A model generated the notes under the pieces. The model saw only the letters and a list, made by a program, of their open reading frames with translations. It was not told where the DNA came from and searched no databases. From Natranaerofaba carboxydovora (lineage in GTDB: Bacteria > Bacillota > Natranaerobiia > Natranaerobiales > Natranaerofabaceae), in contig NZ_CP054394.1 in NCBI RefSeq assembly GCF_022539405.1, positions 2,178,501 to 2,242,500 on the forward strand: a DNA stretch of 64,000 nucleotides, written 5' to 3'. Each line of letters begins with the position of its first letter. Position 1 is the first letter of the stretch. The translations under genes and the position numbers were made by a program. Positions 3,748-44,857 of this stretch are shown here, one piece after another.

Positions 3748-4785
3748 TTACACATCGAGCACTTTTTCTATAGTAATTTCTCTATTTTTTTTCAGGTCTA
3801 CAAATTCATCTCTCACCTTAATCAATGGTCTACCTGGCTCATCTCTATTAACCATTATTACCTCTGCTATACTTTCATCATTTAATAAAACTTTTGACCC
3901 TATAAAAAAGTCCATCAGCCTATTCATGAAAGTTCTAGAAACAAGTGGATCTAGCCTATTAAAGCTTTCTTTATTAAGATGCTCTATAGCTTTGAATACA
4001 CCCTTTTTTTCTCTTTCAAACTTTACTGAAGTCATCTGATCAAATACATCAGCTACTGCAATAATTCTAGCAAAAAAGTGTATTGAAGAACCTTTTACTC
4101 CATCAGGATATCCTTCCCCATTCATCCGTTCATGGTGCTGTAATACTCCTTTGGCTACATTATCGTTAAACTTAGTCTGGCTTTTTATAATTTCGAAACC
4201 TTTTCTTGGATGTTCTTTATCTAGTTCTTCATTTTCTTTGCTTTGGCTAGTAGCCTGATCATTACTTTTAGTCATTGTTCTGCCCATATCATGCAAAAGC
4301 CCTGTTAAACCTATTTCTTGAACAACAGAGTCATCAAAGTCTAGCCATCTTGCAAGTAGAGAAGAATAGATACCTACATTAATACTATGCTGAAACAACC
4401 GATTATCGTCATCTTCTAGCTGAGTTAAGAGCTTGAAAAAGTAATAATAATCCTCTGTAAAATCCATCAGCTCTTTGGCTGTTTCTTTTACTTCTTGTTC
4501 GTATATTGTTTCTCCGCTCTCTAACCCTTCAATCATCTTGGAGACTTTTTCAACAGATTTATTATATTTTTCCTTGACCAATTTTTCTGTATCTCTTCTA
4601 GTTTGAACGACCTCTGCCTCTTCATCTTTTACATAAACACTTTCTACATGCCATTTGTCTAGATACTCAATAATCTTTTCCGTTACAATATTATCTTTTG
4701 GGTATAGTACCAAACCATCAGGAGAAACCACATCTTTGCCGAGCTTATATCCTGGTTCTAATTCAGTCACTTTTATCTTTTTCAT
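3748..4785 (-). CDS. HD-GYP domain protein, putative cyclic di-GMP phosphodiesterase
   Basis: 345 residues. An N-terminal region of about 130 residues (start KVTELEPGYKLGKDVV) precedes an HD-GYP domain: HSINVGIYSSLL, LLHDMGR, HHERMNGEGYPDGV, then ARIIAVADVFDQMTS. HD-GYP enzymes hydrolyse cyclic di-GMP with a di- or tri-metal site. The HDxGK motif has Arg in place of Lys, and the segment after it is replaced by a polar Ser/Asn/Glu-rich stretch, so metal binding may be altered. The GYP signature is intact. It is transcribed alone; a second HD-GYP protein is encoded at 6543-8093. Confidence 0.82.
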   Translation of the reverse strand: MKKIKVTELEPGYKLGKDVVSPDGLVLYPKDNIVTEKIIEYLDKWHVESVYVKDEEAEVVQTRRDTEKLVKEKYNKSVEKVSKMIEGLESGETIYEQEVKETAKELMDFTEDYYYFFKLLTQLEDDDNRLFQHSINVGIYSSLLARWLDFDDSVVQEIGLTGLLHDMGRTMTKSNDQATSQSKENEELDKEHPRKGFEIIKSQTKFNDNVAKGVLQHHERMNGEGYPDGVKGSSIHFFARIIAVADVFDQMTSVKFEREKKGVFKAIEHLNKESFNRLDPLVSRTFMNRLMDFFIGSKVLLNDESIAEVIMVNRDEPGRPLIKVRDEFVDLKKNREITIEKVLDV

Positions 4786-5044
4786 TTTACTTACCCCCTG
4801 ACATTCGCTTATCTACAATATTTTATTAGCCTTGTTAAAACTTTTGTTAAATCTTACTTAATAACTTTTCTAAAAATATCAAAATATACCTTCTTCTTTC
4901 ATTAAAAGGGGTATAATAGACTAGTTTAATCTAAGTTAAAAATCCTATTTAAATTAATACAATAGTCCCGGGCCAATAAGCTTGTTTTCATATTAAAATT
5001 ATTATATAGTTGAATTGCTAATAGATAAAAAAGGAGTTAAAAGA

Positions 5045-5338
5045 ATGGTAAATTTAACCTGTCCTCGCTGTAATAGTGAAAATATTGAACAAAATAAAGT
5101 TAATAAAAACAATATAATAAGCGTCATTATTATATTGATAGTTTTTATCTTATTTTTAATGCCTGTACTCTCATATTTCTTGGCTGTATACTATTCAGTC
5201 TCTTTTGAATTATGTTATTTGTTTATAATAATAACCGGAGTAATAGTACTTTTCAGGGAATTTTTAAAGAGGCATAACTTTTGCAAGCAGTGTCTATACA
5301 AGTGGGATAACAAAAAATCAAAGCAAAAAAGTTACTAA
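5045..5338 (+). CDS. Small zinc-ribbon membrane protein
   Basis: 97 residues from ATG at 5045, chosen because GGAG lies 8 nt upstream; a longer frame exists but lacks a ribosome site. It opens with CPRCNSENI, a Cys pair typical of zinc ribbons, followed by two long hydrophobic segments (about 25-47 and 52-72), and ends with a second pair, CKQCLYKW. The four Cys could form one zinc ribbon on the cytoplasmic side. No specific family is recognised. It is convergent with the serine protease gene, only 4 bp away. Confidence 0.6.
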   Translation: MVNLTCPRCNSENIEQNKVNKNNIISVIIILIVFILFLMPVLSYFLAVYYSVSFELCYLFIIITGVIVLFREFLKRHNFCKQCLYKWDNKKSKQKSY

Positions 5339-6542: not shown

Positions 6543-8093
6543 TCAATCTGCTTCCTGTTCATAAATTCTCTCAAATTCTTTTTCGAGGGCTTTAAAACTT
6601 TCTAAAACCCGGGGACAAAAATGTTCTGGTTCGACCCTACCATCACCTTCGGTAATTATTTTATAAGCTTTTTCGTGGCTAAAAGAAGGTTTATACGGTC
6701 TTTTGCTTCTCAATGCATCATACACATCACATATTGCTACTAACCTAGCAGTAAAAGGTATCTCTTCTCCTTGCAAACCATAAGGATAGCCTGTTCCATC
6801 ATAGCGTTCATGATGATACATTGCAATTTCTCTTGCCATTGCAAAATATGGAGAATCTCCCAGAATCAAAACACCATATATAGTATGGTTTTGCATTTCC
6901 ATAAATTCCTCTTTGGTCAAAGGCCCTTCTTTTAGGAGTATATCAGGTCCTATTTTAATCTTGCCTACGTCATGCATTTTGGAAGAGTACGATAGTTCGT
7001 CTAGCCCTTTACCAGAAAAACCAAATTGTCTTGCAAGTAAAAGACTATATTTACTAATTCTTTTAATATGATTTCCTGTTTCAAAATCTACAGCCTCTGC
7101 AGCTCTTGAAAGAGCACCTGCTGTATATGTAAAAGCACTTCTAAGCTCTTTTGTCTGTTCATTCATTCTTTTGTATACAGTTATCTGGTTAACTAACCCT
7201 CTCAAAATTTCTTTTTGTAAAAAACCTATTTCAGCCATAAAGTTTACTGCCACTACAGACACATCTTCATAAGATGAGGTTATATAATTAACTACATCAT
7301 TCAAATCCAATATATACCTATAAATATTACATGTCTCACATTTTAAAGAAAAGTAACTACTGTTTTCTTCTCTGTCAAGTTCCATCAAACATGAAGTAGT
7401 GCCAGTACCCCTCCTAAGCACATTACACATAACCGGCCCTTCATTTGAGGCCAAAATATAATTATCTACTAAAATATATCTGCTCATTTGGAACAGATAT
7501 TTTCGACATCTTACATAATCATTTTCCCTTAAAAATATATAGACCACTTCAGGTGCAGAGATACTATACTCTGAAAAAAATACCTTATCAATTAATTCTT
7601 TTTCCACCGTTTCTAATTCGAACCACATCAGATCATACTTATCAAACATCTCTTCTGAGTATGATAGTATCTGAGTGAGGCTATTGTTAACTGTTTCTAA
7701 TTCAAGGTTAGAAGTTCTAAGCTCTAGAAGGTTATTTAATCTATACCAGAGTTCTTTATCATCTAGGGGCAGATAATATATATCATCCACGCCTTTACTA
7801 AGCGCCTCAATCCTTTGCTCTCTTGTAATATTATTACTTACCAATATAATAGGAAGTTCAAACTTTTCCTTTTTGTTTCTTATTTTTTCACAAAGTTTTA
7901 ATGAGTGTTCTGTATTATCAAAATCAATGATAACAAGGCGTAGAGACAAGTCAAAATTTATTGTATCTAACATTTCGGGGTCATTTTCTACCTGTTTAAG
8001 ATTAACTCCCAAAGAAGATAATACTTGCTCCATAATATGTATTATATCCTCTTTTTTATTTGATATTACCAATGCATTTCCAGCTCTATACAA
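6543..8093 (-). CDS. Response regulator with C-terminal HD-GYP domain
   Basis: 516 residues from a TTG start behind GAGGGG. A receiver domain (about 1-125) has the acceptor candidate Asp 57 in VIIDFD. A middle region (about 130-330) has several Cys, including CETC, and no recognised fold. The C-terminal HD-GYP domain shows HDVGKIKIGPDIL, HHERYDGTGYPYGL and ARLVAICDVYDALRSKRPYK, all canonical, so cyclic di-GMP hydrolysis is plausible. It follows a kinase/phosphatase gene by 33 bp and the STAS gene lies just before that, suggesting one regulatory operon. Confidence 0.87.
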   Translation of the reverse strand: MYRAGNALVISNKKEDIIHIMEQVLSSLGVNLKQVENDPEMLDTINFDLSLRLVIIDFDNTEHSLKLCEKIRNKKEKFELPIILVSNNITREQRIEALSKGVDDIYYLPLDDKELWYRLNNLLELRTSNLELETVNNSLTQILSYSEEMFDKYDLMWFELETVEKELIDKVFFSEYSISAPEVVYIFLRENDYVRCRKYLFQMSRYILVDNYILASNEGPVMCNVLRRGTGTTSCLMELDREENSSYFSLKCETCNIYRYILDLNDVVNYITSSYEDVSVVAVNFMAEIGFLQKEILRGLVNQITVYKRMNEQTKELRSAFTYTAGALSRAAEAVDFETGNHIKRISKYSLLLARQFGFSGKGLDELSYSSKMHDVGKIKIGPDILLKEGPLTKEEFMEMQNHTIYGVLILGDSPYFAMAREIAMYHHERYDGTGYPYGLQGEEIPFTARLVAICDVYDALRSKRPYKPSFSHEKAYKIITEGDGRVEPEHFCPRVLESFKALEKEFERIYEQEAD

Positions 8094-8126: not shown

Positions 8127-9719
8127 TCAGATACTTTTAATCATATTAACCCGATTTCCCCTGGAGTTATAAAACACATAATCAAAACAGCATTTAGCTA
8201 TGATAAGGCCTCTACCTTCATCGGAAAAATCATTCGTATTTAAATTTTTTTCTATTCTACTATTCCAGTCAAAACCCTCTCCTTCATCCTGTATGCAAAC
8301 TTTAATATAGTCAGAGGTTTTTTTGAACATGATATGAATTTTCTTTGAATCATCGTGTTTGTTACCGTGCTCGAGGCTGTTGTTAAGCATCTCGTTTACT
8401 CCAAGCATAACTTTGTCCACATCTAATTCATCTTTATAATTATCTATTAAATAGTGATAAATGTTCTTCTTAGCAATATGGATTTCATCAAAAGTACTAT
8501 TAATGGTGAAATTTTTTTCGATCAATTCATTCGGATCCATTTGAAGGGCCAAAACTATAATGTCATCCTCTTTAGGGGAAATCCCTAGAAACTTTTTGTG
8601 ATCACGCTTAATTAACTCTGTTATTACATTTGGATCATATCTATGATGTTTGTAATAGATCTTTTCTAAACGTTTTAGACCATAGATTCTATTCCTTACT
8701 CTAGTATTTAGAAGACCTTTAGTATAAAACAAAAGGGTATCTCCTTTGTTAATTTTACATGTTTTGTTGTCAAACTCAAACAATTTTTTATCAATTGATG
8801 AAGATACAGGAAGCCCCTGACATTCTAATTCTTGTATTTCACCATCCCACCTAGATAACAAAGGTGGTAGATAAAACCCGGCATTACTATATTCAAACAC
8901 ATTAGTTTCAAGATCCAATACCCCAATATAAATGCAGATTAAATAGTCTGAAGGAAAGTTTGCTTCAAGAAATTTTTCAGTAAGATAATATAAAATATCT
9001 TTGGGGTTGATATTTAGCGATCCAAAATTTTCTAAGAAAAAGTTGTTTATTGAGTTTTTTATGAAAATATTTAAAATTAGGCTTTCGTAATCCTGTGTGC
9101 TAACATCGGCAAAAAAGTAAAATATTCTACCTCCTATTTTTTGTATATCACAGTAATTACCTTTTAAGTTTTCAGCAGGCTTGTACCATGAAGAAAATGT
9201 CAAACCATTAATCTCTGGATGGTTAACGTTTGACATTTGTTTGGACAGTACATTATTTTCTTTTAGCGTTCTATTGATTTTTTGATCCAGCCTGCTTAAT
9301 TTTTCTTCAGCTTCAATTCTTCTTTTTCTCTCATTCTTGGTCTCAAACATATACTCCATACAACATCTTATAATGTTTGGACTTAACTCATCTTTGGCCA
9401 TGTAACAACAAAGGCTGGGTTTTCTTTTAATTAAAGACAACTTATCTTCAAAGTTAACTTCCTCGTAAATTATAATTACTGGTAAATTAATGTTGTCTCC
9501 AATATTACAAACTTTTAAGGCAAAATTTTCATCCAACATATCGAGAGTTTTTTCACAAACAAATACCATATCATAATAATTATGTTTTAATTTTATTTTA
9601 GTATCTCCATAATTAAATACTCTATCAATAATAAGTTCTTCTTTTCCTAAGCCTGCTTTTAAGTACTCATATAGCCTTGAATACACATCCAAATTTTTTT
9701 CAAATAACAATAGCCGCAC
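8127..9719 (-). CDS. SpoIIE-like phosphatase domain fused to an anti-sigma-type kinase domain
   Basis: 530 residues from GTG behind GGAGG. A receiver-like N-terminus (1-125) and a short coiled coil (130-165) are followed by a PP2C/SpoIIE domain (about 170-395) and a HATPase_c domain (about 410-530). The kinase part is complete: E443/N447/H451, DEGEGFDW and GRGLIIAK, as in RsbW or SpoIIAB. The PP2C part is eroded: GGD is KGN (Asn 188) and YTDG is YTKG (Lys 334), while Asp 191, Asp 205 and the final EDD remain. Two metal ligands thus appear lost. The STAS partner is encoded directly upstream. Confidence 0.85.
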   Translation of the reverse strand: MRLLLFEKNLDVYSRLYEYLKAGLGKEELIIDRVFNYGDTKIKLKHNYYDMVFVCEKTLDMLDENFALKVCNIGDNINLPVIIIYEEVNFEDKLSLIKRKPSLCCYMAKDELSPNIIRCCMEYMFETKNERKRRIEAEEKLSRLDQKINRTLKENNVLSKQMSNVNHPEINGLTFSSWYKPAENLKGNYCDIQKIGGRIFYFFADVSTQDYESLILNIFIKNSINNFFLENFGSLNINPKDILYYLTEKFLEANFPSDYLICIYIGVLDLETNVFEYSNAGFYLPPLLSRWDGEIQELECQGLPVSSSIDKKLFEFDNKTCKINKGDTLLFYTKGLLNTRVRNRIYGLKRLEKIYYKHHRYDPNVITELIKRDHKKFLGISPKEDDIIVLALQMDPNELIEKNFTINSTFDEIHIAKKNIYHYLIDNYKDELDVDKVMLGVNEMLNNSLEHGNKHDDSKKIHIMFKKTSDYIKVCIQDEGEGFDWNSRIEKNLNTNDFSDEGRGLIIAKCCFDYVFYNSRGNRVNMIKSI

Positions 9720-19991: not shown

Positions 19992-21101
19992 TTATTTTTT
20001 AGCCAAAAATCCTGACAACTTCTTAATAAATCCTTTCAGGCCCTGATTGTCTGGATTCTCTCTTCCCAATATTTCATTACTTATCATTTCTATTTCTTGT
20101 GCAGTTTTTGATCTTGGCCATTCTATCATTATGGGTTTTTGCTTTTTAATAGATTGAGAAAAGGTGGTATTATCCATTACATGACCTAAATACTTTACTG
20201 ATGCACCAAGGAATTGCTTAGAGGCCATTACAATTTTTTCTCCCACATAATCGCCTTCTCTTTTGTCATCCACTTTGTTAACAATTAATCTAATAGGAAG
20301 CTCTGGACTCTCTCGCATTATAATCTTTATCATGGCATAAGCATCAGTTATTGCGTGTGGTTCAGGTGTGGTAACAAGCAACACCTCATCAGAAGCTAGT
20401 AAAAAATTAATTACATTCTTATTAACACCAGCACCTGTATCGAGAAGAATTACGTCAGCATAGTCATCTAATTTGTTAAAAGCTTGTAACAGTTTACTAA
20501 ACTGAGAATCTCTAAGGTTTGCAATCTCTTGCCAACCAGATCCTCCTGGTATAATCAAAATACCTTCCGGCCCTTCCAAAACTATATCAAAAATGTCTTT
20601 GTATCCCATTATTAAATGAGTCAAGTTATATTTTGGACTTAAATTCAACAATACATCTACATTAGCCATCCCTAAATCTGCATCAACCACGCAAGCTCTT
20701 TGCCCAAGTCTTGCCATGCTAATAGCTATATTTATAGACAAACTGCTTTTTCCTACTCCACCCTTACCACTTGTCACTGCAATCACTCTAGCGCTTTTAT
20801 TATCAGTCATATTATCCCTCTGCCCCCTGAAAATTGATCCGGGTCTAGCTATTTCAAGGTTTTTGTCATTTCCTAATTTTCTCGAAAGAACCTCTGAATC
20901 AAATGAAAACGAACTATTGCTTACTTTTAGTTTGGTACCTACAGCCAGGGGAATAAGTTTTCCCTTGTCAAATGGCACAGAGATTACGATATGGTTATTA
21001 TTGATTTCTATTACTTCACTGATATATTTGCCGCTATAAACATTAGTCGCAGGCTCTAAATAAATCTTGTCTCCGGGGTTAATTGAAATATTATTATCCA
21101 A
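19992..21101 (-). CDS. YcgR-type PilZN domain fused to a MinD/FlhG-like ATPase
   Basis: 369 residues from TTG at 21101, with AGGAGG 7 nt upstream. Residues 1-95 resemble the YcgR N-terminal (PilZN) domain: INPGDKIYLEP, EVIEINNNHIVISVPFDKGKLIPLAVGTKLKV, SFDSEVLSRK. The c-di-GMP-binding PilZ barrel that normally follows is absent; instead a P-loop ATPase begins near 103 with VTSGKGGVGKSS (deviant Walker A, Lys 113 and Lys 118), VVDADLGMANVDVLL and VILLDTGAGV. FlhG-type ATPases set flagellar number or position. No flagellar genes are in the window, so its target is open. Confidence 0.8.
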   Translation of the reverse strand: MDNNISINPGDKIYLEPATNVYSGKYISEVIEINNNHIVISVPFDKGKLIPLAVGTKLKVSNSSFSFDSEVLSRKLGNDKNLEIARPGSIFRGQRDNMTDNKSARVIAVTSGKGGVGKSSLSINIAISMARLGQRACVVDADLGMANVDVLLNLSPKYNLTHLIMGYKDIFDIVLEGPEGILIIPGGSGWQEIANLRDSQFSKLLQAFNKLDDYADVILLDTGAGVNKNVINFLLASDEVLLVTTPEPHAITDAYAMIKIIMRESPELPIRLIVNKVDDKREGDYVGEKIVMASKQFLGASVKYLGHVMDNTTFSQSIKKQKPIMIEWPRSKTAQEIEMISNEILGRENPDNQGLKGFIKKLSGFLAKK

Positions 21102-21189
21102 AAATAAACCTCCTATGCCATATATAAGCACAACATACTATGCCTTAATACCATATTTTCTATGGGAATGAAAATTTTCCTTCTTTTAT

Positions 21190-21275: not shown

Positions 21276-21758
21276 TTGAAAATTAATATTAGCAACAATT
21301 GTAAACTCAAATCTTCGGTTAAAAATGACAAACACAAAGGTAAGTTAGAAGAAATAGAATTAGTTAGGCCCTGGGCTGAAATTATCAAAATGGAAGGAAT
21401 TCAAGCAGGCAATAATTTAAACGCCAGGGCAACAATTAAAAACATTGCTTTTCAAACAATTTCTCCAGTTAAAATCAATATTACTGGAAATATAGACGTA
21501 ACAACAGAAAAATATAACCAAAAAAACTCTACCAAACCCATCAAGCTAAAATGGGATAAAACTTTAAGAACAATACCTGAACAGCATAAAAGCATCTCAC
21601 TAAATACCCTGTTAAAAATTCCAGAAAACAAACCTAAAATAAAACAGCTAAAAACGATAAAGCCTGAACTAAAATATATAAGCGCAAAAACTCTACCTAA
21701 TAGAATTGCTATAAAGGGAGAAGTGATATTTAAGATTTGGTACTACCACAAAGATTAG
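21276..21758 (+). CDS. Basic protein with a SPOCS-like (DUF3794) C-terminal segment
   Basis: 160 residues from TTG behind AAGGAGGGG. It is Lys-rich, unlike most neighbours. The last part, KYISAKTLPNRIAIKGEVIFKIWYY, has the strand pattern of SPOCS repeats found in spore-coat and LysM proteins of clostridia. The central part (RPWAEIIKMEGIQAGNNLNARATIKNIAF) gives no clear family. A spore-related role is a weak inference from this similarity. Its stop codon overlaps the stop codon of the convergent fur-family gene. Confidence 0.5.
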   Translation: MKINISNNCKLKSSVKNDKHKGKLEEIELVRPWAEIIKMEGIQAGNNLNARATIKNIAFQTISPVKINITGNIDVTTEKYNQKNSTKPIKLKWDKTLRTIPEQHKSISLNTLLKIPENKPKIKQLKTIKPELKYISAKTLPNRIAIKGEVIFKIWYYHKD

Positions 21759-41879: not shown

Positions 41880-41918
41880 AAAAGGGGCTGTCCCAAACCT
41901 CCAACAAAACAGCCCTTC
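41880..41918 (-). terminator. Terminator after the downstream RNA methyltransferase gene
   Basis: AAGGGGCTGT pairs with ACAGCCCTT, followed on the minus strand by five T. Confidence 0.65.
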
Positions 41919-43333
41919 TATTTATCCACCCTTGACATCAATACTACACACTCCACATGAGCAGTTTGAGGAAACATATCTACCGGTTGGATTTCCTCTG
42001 CTTTGTATCCATGTTTAGCTAAAAACTTCATATCTCTTGCCTGAGTTATTGGATTACAGGAGATGTAAACCACTTTTTTCGGCGATATCTTAACTAGTGA
42101 GGACAAGAATTTTTCATCGCTTCCGCTCCTTGGAGGATCCATTATAACTACATCTAGTTTTTCACCGCTTTCCTTCATCTTGAGCATAAACTCTCCAGCA
42201 TCTCCTTGATAGAAGCGAGCATTATTTACTTGGTTTTGTTTAGCATTTTTGATGGAGTCCCGTACTGCATCTTTGTTCAATTCCACTCCTATCACCGATT
42301 TGACATTTTTGCTTAGGATTATCCCTATTGTTCCTATGCCTGAATAGGCATCCATGACCACTTCATTGCCTTTGAAATTGGCCATCTCTATGGCTTTACC
42401 GTACAGTTTTTCTGTTTGTTTAGGGTTAACTTGATAGAATGATTTTGATGATATGTTAAAGGTGTAACCGCATAGTGTATCCTGAATGGTTCCTTTTCCG
42501 TACAAGACTTTTTCTCTGTCACCCAACACCATACTAGTTCTTTTATTGTTAATATTCATGATAATAGTTTTGATTTCAGGGTGCTCTTTTCGCAAAGCCT
42601 TTATAAAGTTATTCTTCGATGCAAACATGGTACTAGGGGTGACTAGGATTACCATTATTTCCTTTGTGGCAAACCCTACCTTTACTAGGACATGCCTAAT
42701 TAGGCCTCTGCCGGTATCTTCATCATAGGGGTTCATTTTAAAGGACTTCATAAGTTTTCTTATGGTTTTGTGTATATCATCGGCCTTAGTACTCTGAATT
42801 AGACACCGATCCACTGGAATCACCTTATGGCTTTTTTCTTCATAGAAGCCTGAAACTATTTTTCCGTTTTTATATGAATATGTAGCATGGGCCTTGTTGC
42901 GGTAATCATAGGGGTTATCCATTGTAATAATGGAGTTTACTTTAGCAAAGGGCTTCATTAATTTTTCTACCATTAGCTGCTTATGTTGGAACTGATCCTT
43001 ATATGACATGTGCTGCAGTTGACATCCCCCACATTTATCGTAATGGGGGCACCTCGCTTTAACCCTTTTGGGAGATGGTTTCAATACCTTCAAAAGATTT
43101 CCTGTTATATGCCTTCCCTTTTTTATAATTTCTATTTTTGCAGTTTCATCTTTTATTAGGTTTGAGATTCGTATTTCTTGACCATTATAATTAACTATCC
43201 CTTTGCCCTCTGCATCTATGTCGATACATTTTGCTTCCACAATTTCTTTTTTAGAAGAGCCTCTTTTGCCGCTTGCTTTTTTGCTATTATTTTTTTTATT
43301 GTTACCTTTAAATTTTTGTTTTGTTTTTTTCAT
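41918..43333 (-). CDS. RNA uracil-C5 methyltransferase, RlmD/TrmA type (second of a tandem pair)
   Basis: 471 residues from ATG at 43333, with AAGGATGG upstream. A Lys/Asn/Ser-rich tail (about 1-30) precedes a TRAM domain, a 4Fe-4S site with CPHYDKCGGCQLQH, and the Rossmann methyltransferase domain with DAYSGIGTIGI, VIMDPPRSGSDE and the catalytic Cys in YISCNPITQARD. RlmD methylates U1939 of 23S rRNA (in Bacillus, related RlmCD does U747 and U1939). The basic tail is unusual in this acidic protein set. It is 38% or so longer than its TRAM core and follows a paralogue. Confidence 0.88.
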   Translation of the reverse strand: MKKTKQKFKGNNKKNNSKKASGKRGSSKKEIVEAKCIDIDAEGKGIVNYNGQEIRISNLIKDETAKIEIIKKGRHITGNLLKVLKPSPKRVKARCPHYDKCGGCQLQHMSYKDQFQHKQLMVEKLMKPFAKVNSIITMDNPYDYRNKAHATYSYKNGKIVSGFYEEKSHKVIPVDRCLIQSTKADDIHKTIRKLMKSFKMNPYDEDTGRGLIRHVLVKVGFATKEIMVILVTPSTMFASKNNFIKALRKEHPEIKTIIMNINNKRTSMVLGDREKVLYGKGTIQDTLCGYTFNISSKSFYQVNPKQTEKLYGKAIEMANFKGNEVVMDAYSGIGTIGIILSKNVKSVIGVELNKDAVRDSIKNAKQNQVNNARFYQGDAGEFMLKMKESGEKLDVVIMDPPRSGSDEKFLSSLVKISPKKVVYISCNPITQARDMKFLAKHGYKAEEIQPVDMFPQTAHVECVVLMSRVDK

Positions 43334-43435
43334 AATATCCATCCTTACTCTCAAAACTTTTTTCTGATGATGTTTGAGTCGTTCATACTTTATCAAACTT
43401 TTATAATAGCATCAACGTATTCCTACTGATATAAT

Positions 43436-44857
43436 TTATTTCTGTTCTATCAACACTATCGTCTCCACATGCACGCTCTGCGGAAACATATCCACTGGCT
43501 GCACAGCTTTGACATGATACTTAGTTTTGTCTGAGTTCACAAGTAGGTTCAAATCCCTTGCAAGAGTTGAAGGATTACATGAGACATATATTATTTTTTG
43601 AGACTTTAGATCCAATAATGCCTGCAAAAAATCTTTGTCACACCCTTTTCTAGGCGGGTCAACTACTACAATTTCAGGTTCTTGCTCTTTATGTTCTCTT
43701 AATTCATAAATAATCTCTTCTACTTTTCCATGCCAAAATACAGCTTTGTTTTCTAAATTATTTATCCCGGCATTATCCCTGGCATCATTAACAGCTTCCT
43801 TAACAACTTCCATCCCTATAACTTCATCAGCATATCTAGCAAAATTTAGAGCTATCGTACCAATCCCACAATAAGCATCTATAACCAGTTTATTTTTTAT
43901 ATTTGTTTCATTTGTTTCATTATGTAAACAAGCTAGCTCTATACTCTTGTTATATAGCTTTTCTGCTTGAAAAGAGTTAACCTGATAAAAGGCAGCCGGT
44001 GAAATTTTAAATTCTAAATTTCCCAGCTTATCTTTTAGATATGATCTACCCCAGATTGTCTTTTCTGCATCACCTAGGATCACATTTGTACGCTTTTGAT
44101 TAATGTTATGTACTATCCCTACTAGGTCTGTAACATTATCTTCTAACTCTTTAATTATCTTCTTCTTGTTGGGAAATTTGTTTTCCCTTGTTACAAAAAC
44201 AATCAAAATCTCTCCGCTATTTGCACCAACTCGAATTATCACATGACGTAATAACCCCTCATGTTTAGTTTCATCATAAGGAGGAATGTCGTATTTTTTC
44301 AGGATTTCTCTAACTTTTTTCAAAACTAAGTTGCCTCTTTCATCCTGGATCATGCAGTAGTCCACTGGTATTAGATTATGAGACCTTTTCTTAAAAAAAC
44401 CTAATTCTGTCTCATTGTCTATTTTTCGCACCGGCAGCTGAATTTTATTTCTATAGTTCCAGGGATGTTTCATACCCATTATCGGCAAAAATTCATACTC
44501 TTCGCTATCTATTCCACCAATTTTCTCTATATTCTCTTTTACCTGCTTTTCTTTAAATTTTAACTGCCCCTCATAACTAAGATGCTGAAGCTGACAACCT
44601 CCACAATCTTTATAATAAGGGCAGGGCGGGCTCACTCTATCTTTCGAGCTAGTCTTTATCTCTGTAATCAAAGCCCTGGCATAATTTTTCTTAGTACTTA
44701 TCACTTCACATTCAACCTCTTCTTCGGGCAAGGCTTCAGGCACAAAAATAGCAAAGCCCTCATACCTTCCTATACCTTCTCCCTGGTGATTCATATCATC
44801 TATATCAACGGTTATTCTGTCTCCAACTTTCACCGGGATGGTTTTTTTCTTACCCAT
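43436..44857 (-). CDS. RNA uracil-C5 methyltransferase, RlmD/TrmA type (first of a tandem pair)
   Basis: 473 residues. TRAM domain (DRITVDIDDMNHQGEGIGRYEGFAIFVPEALPEEEV), Fe-S ligands CPYYKDCGGCQLQH, SAM-binding DAYCGIGTIAL, VVVDPPRKGCD and the catalytic Cys in YVSCNPSTLARD are all present. It is closely related to the next gene downstream but not identical, and has no basic tail. Two paralogues side by side may share out the 23S rRNA targets U747 and U1939, or one may act on tRNA. The 102-bp spacing suggests one transcript. Confidence 0.9.
   Translation of the reverse strand: MGKKKTIPVKVGDRITVDIDDMNHQGEGIGRYEGFAIFVPEALPEEEVECEVISTKKNYARALITEIKTSSKDRVSPPCPYYKDCGGCQLQHLSYEGQLKFKEKQVKENIEKIGGIDSEEYEFLPIMGMKHPWNYRNKIQLPVRKIDNETELGFFKKRSHNLIPVDYCMIQDERGNLVLKKVREILKKYDIPPYDETKHEGLLRHVIIRVGANSGEILIVFVTRENKFPNKKKIIKELEDNVTDLVGIVHNINQKRTNVILGDAEKTIWGRSYLKDKLGNLEFKISPAAFYQVNSFQAEKLYNKSIELACLHNETNETNIKNKLVIDAYCGIGTIALNFARYADEVIGMEVVKEAVNDARDNAGINNLENKAVFWHGKVEEIIYELREHKEQEPEIVVVDPPRKGCDKDFLQALLDLKSQKIIYVSCNPSTLARDLNLLVNSDKTKYHVKAVQPVDMFPQSVHVETIVLIEQK

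Follow-up and report, generated by a model that had tools for sequence, protein, structure and literature searches.

FlhF and FlhG set the position and number of flagella. In a 64,000-nucleotide stretch of the Natranaerofaba carboxydovora genome (the window), a preliminary description had pointed to a gene in which the N-terminal domain of YcgR is joined to a MinD/FlhG-like ATPase, and had suggested for it, with two HD-GYP proteins encoded in the window, a c-di-GMP-linked or flagellar role. The questions raised by this locus are whether both halves of the protein are what they appear to be, whether the gene is real, and what a protein of this architecture might do.

Domains and residues of the fusion protein

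The features of the locus are collected in Table 1. An alternative, longer GTG frame starts at 21131 and is less likely to represent the true start.

Table 1. Features of the PilZN-FlhG fusion gene and of the HD-GYP-type genes in the window
Feature	Position	Strand	Remarks
PilZN-FlhG fusion gene	19992..21101	-	369 codons plus stop, TTG start, unbroken frame
Ribosome-binding site AGGAGG	21109..21114	-	7 nt before the TTG start (21099-21101); sequence
YcgR-N (PilZNR/PilZN) domain, residues 9-87	20841..21077	-	PF12945 and predicted fold
Linker, residues 88-104	20790..20840	-	occupies the place of the YcgR RxxxR and c-di-GMP-binding PilZ domain
FlhG/FleN-type ATPase domain, residues 105-344	20070..20789	-	Pfam, PDB sequence and fold matches
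Deviant Walker A SGKGGVGK, residues 111-118	20748..20771	-	sequence
C-terminal helix, residues 354-367	20001..20042	-	predicted; probable membrane-targeting sequence
HD-GYP-type gene	3748-4785	-	HD domain by Pfam
HD-GYP-type gene	6543-8093	-	HD domain by Pfam

The YcgR N-terminal pattern noted at the start of the protein was borne out by Pfam (PilZNR, PF12945, 55.9 bits against a cut-off of 23) and by the predicted fold, and the deviant Walker A motif proved to be present as described. The ATPase region matches the AAA_31, ParA and CbiA models. The claim that the ATPase stands where YcgR has its c-di-GMP-binding PilZ barrel also held: the protein has no Pfam match to PilZ (PF07238) and lacks the c-di-GMP motifs, [DN]xSxxG being absent from its N-terminal part and present there in one of the 35 full-length fusions listed from the phylum (see below). 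A second barrel is ruled out because only about 17 residues separate the two domains. As to the "MinD/FlhG-like" ATPase, the FlhG half of the label stands, in the form of the FlhG/FleN type, and the MinD half does not. The top PDB sequence matches are FleN (5j1j, E=6.6e-57) and FlhG (4rz2), and the NCBIfam MinD models remained below cut-off (TIGR01968, 109.7 vs 212.9 bits; TIGR01969, 145.6 vs 201.75 bits). MinD identity was rejected on these cut-offs, on the ATPase tree and on the residues of the FliY-binding surface.

The AlphaFold2 model of the whole protein has a mean pLDDT of 86.4, with linker residues 93–99 under 50. Its pTM is 0.73, and the relative placement of the PilZN and ATPase domains in it is uncertain; the C-terminal helix was predicted in the same model. 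Using Foldseek, the whole protein matched Geobacillus FlhG first (4rz2; TM 0.93 by target length) and FleN next. When modelled alone (pLDDT 86.4, pTM 0.77), the N-terminal part found its best match in MotI/DgrA of Bacillus subtilis (5vx6; Foldseek E=2.3e-4), with residues 2–92 of which it aligned at Z 11.4 and an rmsd of 2.7 over 84 residues (VIA). The next rows of this comparison were VCA0042 residues 25–129 (Z 10.8 and 10.3), followed by PilZ domains of BcsA (Z 8.9), matches which fit the N-domain being a PilZ-like barrel. E. coli YcgR-N reached Z 7.5 (VIA), level with unrelated barrels, and a search of the PDB with the N-domain profile placed MotI (YpfA) first (E=0.0085), with an unrelated protein close behind (E=0.033). 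The structural comparison with YcgR-N that had been proposed for the N-terminus came out in its favour, MotI residues 2–92 being the best match, and both halves of the protein are confirmed.

Residue numbers of the window protein equal those of Geobacillus FlhG plus 82, as fixed by K36 and D60. K113 and K118 are present in 35/35 listed fusions. The catalytic Asp (Geobacillus D60) is found in 30; the other five carry Ala or Ser and are the f56 members L077, L078, L079, L203 and L204, located behind parB (three were seen directly and two assigned by exclusion, since G263 has the Asp). In Geobacillus FlhG an Ala change at this position stops ATP hydrolysis, according to the accessible text of PMC12327844, and the five f56 fusions may be arrested in their ATP-bound form. 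The FliY-binding residues given in the accessible text of the same paper, K177, R207 (printed twice as 277) and F215, correspond to K259, K289 (a conservative change) and F297 of the window protein. Among the listed fusions K177 is Lys in 35/35, R207 is Lys or Arg in 29/35 and F215 is Phe or Tyr in 35/35; the corresponding counts are 59, 56 and 58 in 59 FlhG rows and 1, 0 and 1 in 16 MinD-type rows. C-terminal tails of the membrane-targeting type occur in most members of an alignment of 32 of the 35 listed fusions (without G263, G239 and G062), the exceptions being L073, L077, L080 and L081; another alignment comprised 30 of those 32. The N-terminal DQA..L pattern is absent from 33 of the 35, the window protein included, and present in two. 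In the PilZN part dN is lower than dS in six of the seven close pairs where dS was computable, for example 0.136 vs 0.65 in f32, several of the dS values being near saturation.

The identity of the window gene as a real, conserved FlhG variant is well supported. The missing enhancer helix sets it apart from a canonical FlhG, and the lack of a c-di-GMP-binding PilZ domain from a YcgR.

Occurrence, gene settings and descent

The search for the same architecture in related genomes was fruitful. All three genomes examined from the order carry the fusion, the two other proteins being 51 and 56% identical over nearly the full length, and of 398 genomes sampled across the phylum at least 35, that of the window counted, have the fusion at full length. 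A full-length call denotes a match from position 6 or earlier with at least 388 bits, and matches were listed down to about E=1e-98. Other listed matches begin at position 49 or later, bar one from position 26 in G297, which contains seven stop codons and was left uncounted. In L074, a member of f94, Pfam did not report PilZNR, and its N-domain was counted by alignment and by the N-domain profile. A first contig scan found no relative, a pattern scan for the ATPase motif found no fusion among the best 80 of 481 relatives, and none of the 23 matching records of a plasmid search covers 80% of the query. The Thermohalobacter berrensis locus L085, matched over query positions 10–368, was rejected as an ordinary flhG followed by ycgR. 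NZ_CP154629.1 (L050), a 2.63-Mb Acetoanaerobium record labelled as a plasmid, has flhG and then a ycgR-type gene, and is probably a mislabelled chromosome.

FlhA was found in 326 of the 398 genomes (325 over cut-off) and in all 35 listed fusion genomes (hypergeometric probability about 6e-4 against 325/398, uncorrected for kinship). A separate FlhG accompanies the fusion in 30/35, with the DQA..L pattern in 27 of those 30. Among the matches listed, the fusion is the only FlhG in G273, G361 and G263, for which 2 of 5, 3 of 6 and 4 of 6 matches are listed, respectively, the remainder being weaker than about 1e-6. In G032 the ordinary flhG is in two pieces through an apparent frameshift (L215, about 4200–5057), which could be a sequencing error or a real loss, and the fusion is intact. 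G303, where the FlhA match stops at the edge of a contig, was counted in neither FlhG class.

The window genome comprises 3.26 Mb in one contig. Its flagellar and chemotaxis cluster contains flhA, flhF, flhG, ycgR, cheB, cheA, cheW, cheC, cheD and a sigma factor gene, names mostly read from translations (flhA, the flhG-type ATPase and ycgR also by search), and there are two FliM/FliN-type genes in the genome. Locating this cluster placed it about 1.2 Mb from the fusion gene, which is therefore not beside flhF; no flagellar gene was seen among the window's 58 ORFs, judged by reading their translations. The ordinary flhG of the host begins with DQAETLR and is 29–30% identical to the ATPase of the fusion, which is a second FlhG-type gene, given that the cluster holds the ordinary one. 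Host ycgR, behind flhG, has PilZNR and PilZ domains with the c-di-GMP motifs RNFFR and DISGGG. The suggested flagellar association is upheld through the relatives of the gene, at or beside flhG in 3/35 and with FlhA in 35/35, and not through the window itself.

For three of the listed fusions the setting is a flagellar operon. Those of G273 and G361 take the position of flhG, between flhF and ycgR, and both proteins open with a DQAxxLR-type motif (MVDQANSLR and MVDQADKLR) ahead of the PilZN domain; in G044 the fusion lies between flhG and ycgR, in tandem behind flhG. In nine of nine fusion genomes of one group, formed by families f56 (5), f104 (2), f129 and f113 and including G263, parB (spo0J) immediately precedes the fusion on its strand, the listed ends being 11–65 bp apart in the eight loci measured. 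At the f56 locus scanned, a parB-like gene is followed by parA, parB and the fusion in that order, and the opposite strand carries a DUF1256 gene. The parB neighbourhood of these nine suggests a different partner there. The remaining 23 listed fusions, the window gene included, are near neither parB nor a host-type flagellar cluster, in a comparison which covered 10–16 kb and took the flagellar genes of the window genome as reference, other flagellar genes being unrecognisable to it.

The flagellar operon of G263 (L214, 5696–7371) reads flhA-flhF-PilZ gene-sigma factor gene and lacks flhG between flhF and the PilZ gene, since those two overlap. Its FlhF is a divergent protein of 310 amino acids (E=8.7e-9 to the FlhF of the window genome), and PilZNR was not reported for its PilZ gene.

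The ATPase tree comprised 110 domains, 94 FlhG and fusion rows and 16 MinD-type rows; it took all 35 listed fusions and only six of the ordinary FlhG rows L099–L162, and was without L006, L016, L059, L112, L137 and L157. The fusions group with FlhG and apart from MinD (root split, 69% SH-aLRT), 15 of the 16 MinD rows sharing one branch of length 1.97 (100%). Twenty-eight fusions, that of the window included, form one group (SH-aLRT 98), within the tree that also recovers the nine parB-linked rows (89); the f94 set, the G044 fusion and the two proteins that carry the DQA motif are placed elsewhere, among further FlhG rows. A single clade for all 35 was not rejected (p-AU 0.603), the tree held to it being 4.28 log units better. 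The PilZN tree of 79 domains has a split (88) with 33 of the 35 fusion domains on one side; opposite them are all 44 YcgR domains and the two other fusions, those of G044 and of G273, the latter on a long branch. Here too, a single clade of fusion domains was not rejected (p-AU 0.532). Families f32, f34, f35, f39 and f74 cluster with one another among the fusions and again among the ordinary FlhG rows of the ATPase tree, the pattern that joint inheritance of the two genes would produce. One ancient insertion of YcgR-N into a duplicated flhG would explain these sequences simply; several events are possible.

Proposed function and rival explanations

According to the accessible text of PMC12826062 and PMC12327844, FlhG forms an ATP-dependent dimer, binds the membrane by its C-terminal helix and activates FlhF by its enhancer helix; the Bacillus protein binds FliY and the cell-cycle protein GpsB (PMC12327844, accessible text). 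In the model proposed for E. coli YcgR-C contacts MotA and YcgR-N contacts FliG, and B. subtilis MotI acts on MotA (both from the accessible text of PMC12713396). On the best reading of the data, the fusion keeps the ATPase, the C-ring-binding surface and the probable membrane helix of FlhG, and a domain that probably docks on the motor has replaced the helix which activates FlhF. We tentatively favour, with somewhat less than even confidence, its being an FlhG paralogue that acts in C-ring assembly or flagellum placement as a second factor, uncoupled from FlhF. ATP would drive the protein to dimerise and bind the membrane, its YcgR-N domain would dock it on the motor (rotor or stator, FliG being the contact proposed in E. 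coli), and the ATPase would hold the FliY/FliM part of the C-ring. With the enhancer helix gone, the fusion would work without stimulating FlhF, alongside ordinary FlhG or, in a few genomes, in its place. Every binding step here is inferred by analogy. Several points count against this proposal: the window gene and 22 other listed fusions are near neither parB nor a host-type flagellar cluster, and nine lie behind parB; the closest fold to the N-domain, B. subtilis MotI, acts on MotA, the contact of YcgR-N with FliG being a proposed model; the five f56 fusions lack the catalytic Asp; the association with FlhA is uncorrected for kinship; and the two domains are placed with uncertainty relative to each other in the model.

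The placement behind parB in nine of nine genomes of one group raises an unlikely alternative, in which a positioning ATPase has been redeployed to the chromosome or the cell cycle in the manner of ParA or MinD, the PilZN domain serves a non-flagellar partner (ParB or a division protein), and the protein is flagellar by ancestry only. The distance of the window gene from flagellar genes and the binding of GpsB by Bacillus FlhG (PMC12327844, accessible text) agree with it. However, that placement is limited to one tree group and is for this reason probably a single event; FlhA accompanies every listed fusion, the FliY-binding residues are kept, and G263, itself parB-linked, has no other FlhG among the matches listed. 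It is mainly on account of the parB-linked group that a chromosomal or cell-cycle role is entertained. Rather improbable is a role as regulator of ordinary FlhG, in which the ATPases would form heterodimers and PilZN would redirect or titrate FlhG. The co-occurrence of a separate FlhG in 30/35 genomes and the parallel grouping of five families among fusions and ordinary FlhG rows, as in long co-inheritance, are what this role would produce, but the fusion stands alone in three genomes among the matches listed, and a shared dimer is less likely because the two ATPases of the window genome are only 29–30% identical.

That the fusion regulates motility in connection with c-di-GMP, with the two HD-GYP proteins serving it, along the lines of the preliminary description, is very unlikely. 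Two HD-GYP-type genes and a YcgR-family domain do occur in one window, but some 12 and 15 kb separate these genes from the fusion, distance being their sole tie to it; the fusion has neither PF07238 nor, in its N-terminal part, [DN]xSxxG, whereas host YcgR keeps both c-di-GMP motifs. The proposed link is unsupported, and a c-di-GMP receptor was rejected because the PilZ domain and the motifs are missing; judged by its sequence, the fusion itself is not one. It is hardly credible that the gene arose artefactually, through misassembly or a frame error that joined two neighbours: flhG and ycgR do adjoin in ordinary operons, but in the order flhG then ycgR, the reverse of that in the fusion, and the PilZN part changes slowly at the protein level. 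The frame is open, and the recurrence of the fusion at full length in at least 35 assemblies excludes chance and the frame error that had been named as a possible refutation.

Elsewhere in the window, one of the two HD-GYP-type proteins has a receiver-domain match below cut-off, and the second HD-GYP gene adjoins a gene (8127–9719, - strand) joining a SpoIIE phosphatase and an RsbW-type kinase in one protein; the three, all on the - strand, possibly form a partner-switch signalling group. Divergent from the fusion is a TTG frame of 160 amino acids with a good ribosome-binding site (21276–21758, + strand) and a partial, sub-threshold SipL/SPOCS match (20.7 bits against 23.6). Adjoining paralogous genes resembling TrmA/RlmD-type RNA methyltransferases, as read from their translations, lie at 41918–43396 and 43436–44857 (- strand).

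Returning to the favoured reading of an FlhF-uncoupled FlhG paralogue, a wider and doubtful extension would be that the phylum possesses a second system for flagellar number or position, uncoupled from FlhF by exchange of the helix inside flhG, the parB-linked copies connecting placement to origin segregation. The DQA-PilZN-ATPase proteins of two genomes are read as a surviving intermediate of this exchange. A natural FlhG with a motor-protein domain in place of the FlhF-activating helix pulls two FlhG roles apart and opens them to testing, and YcgR-N, whose partner is disputed, gains a second natural context without c-di-GMP. How FlhF and FlhG work in bacteria that are not monotrichous is much less known, according to the accessible text of a 2025 review (PMC12826062).

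Comparison with known systems

No description of the PilZN-FlhG architecture was found in the open-access literature, so that the fusion may be called unusual, as it had been, in this sense; in the phylum it is not rare. The words MinD, ATPase and FlhG are absent from the main text of PMC11800159, and word searches found neither PilZ, YcgR nor fusion in PMC12826062, neither PilZ nor YcgR in PMC12327844, and neither FlhG nor MinD in PMC12564702.

MinD and ParA (Soj) belong to the same ATPase superfamily; the MinD-type rows lack the FliY-surface residues, and the fusion groups with FlhG. With FlhG/FleN/YlxH (Geobacillus FlhG, 4rz2; Pseudomonas aeruginosa FleN, 5j1j) the fusion shares the ATPase fold, the deviant Walker A motif, the FliY-binding residues and, as predicted, a C-terminal helix that is probably membrane-targeting. 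FlhG has an N-terminal DQAxxLR, whereas 33 of the 35 listed fusions lack it and have PilZN ahead of the ATPase instead; the FlhG gene is located beside flhF, and the fusion is outside the flagellar cluster in 32/35. With the N-domain (PF12945) of YcgR/MotI (DgrA/YpfA) it has the sequence profile and fold in common; their C-terminal PilZ domain, c-di-GMP motifs and MotA-contacting tail are absent from it, the ATPase being there instead. The accessible text of PMC11800159 reports a class of proteins with PilZN and no PilZ, and describes YcgR-GAZ and YcgR-NpzN of the Spirochaetota, in which, as in the fusion, PilZN is recombined with other modules; unlike the fusion, these proteins keep a PilZ domain.
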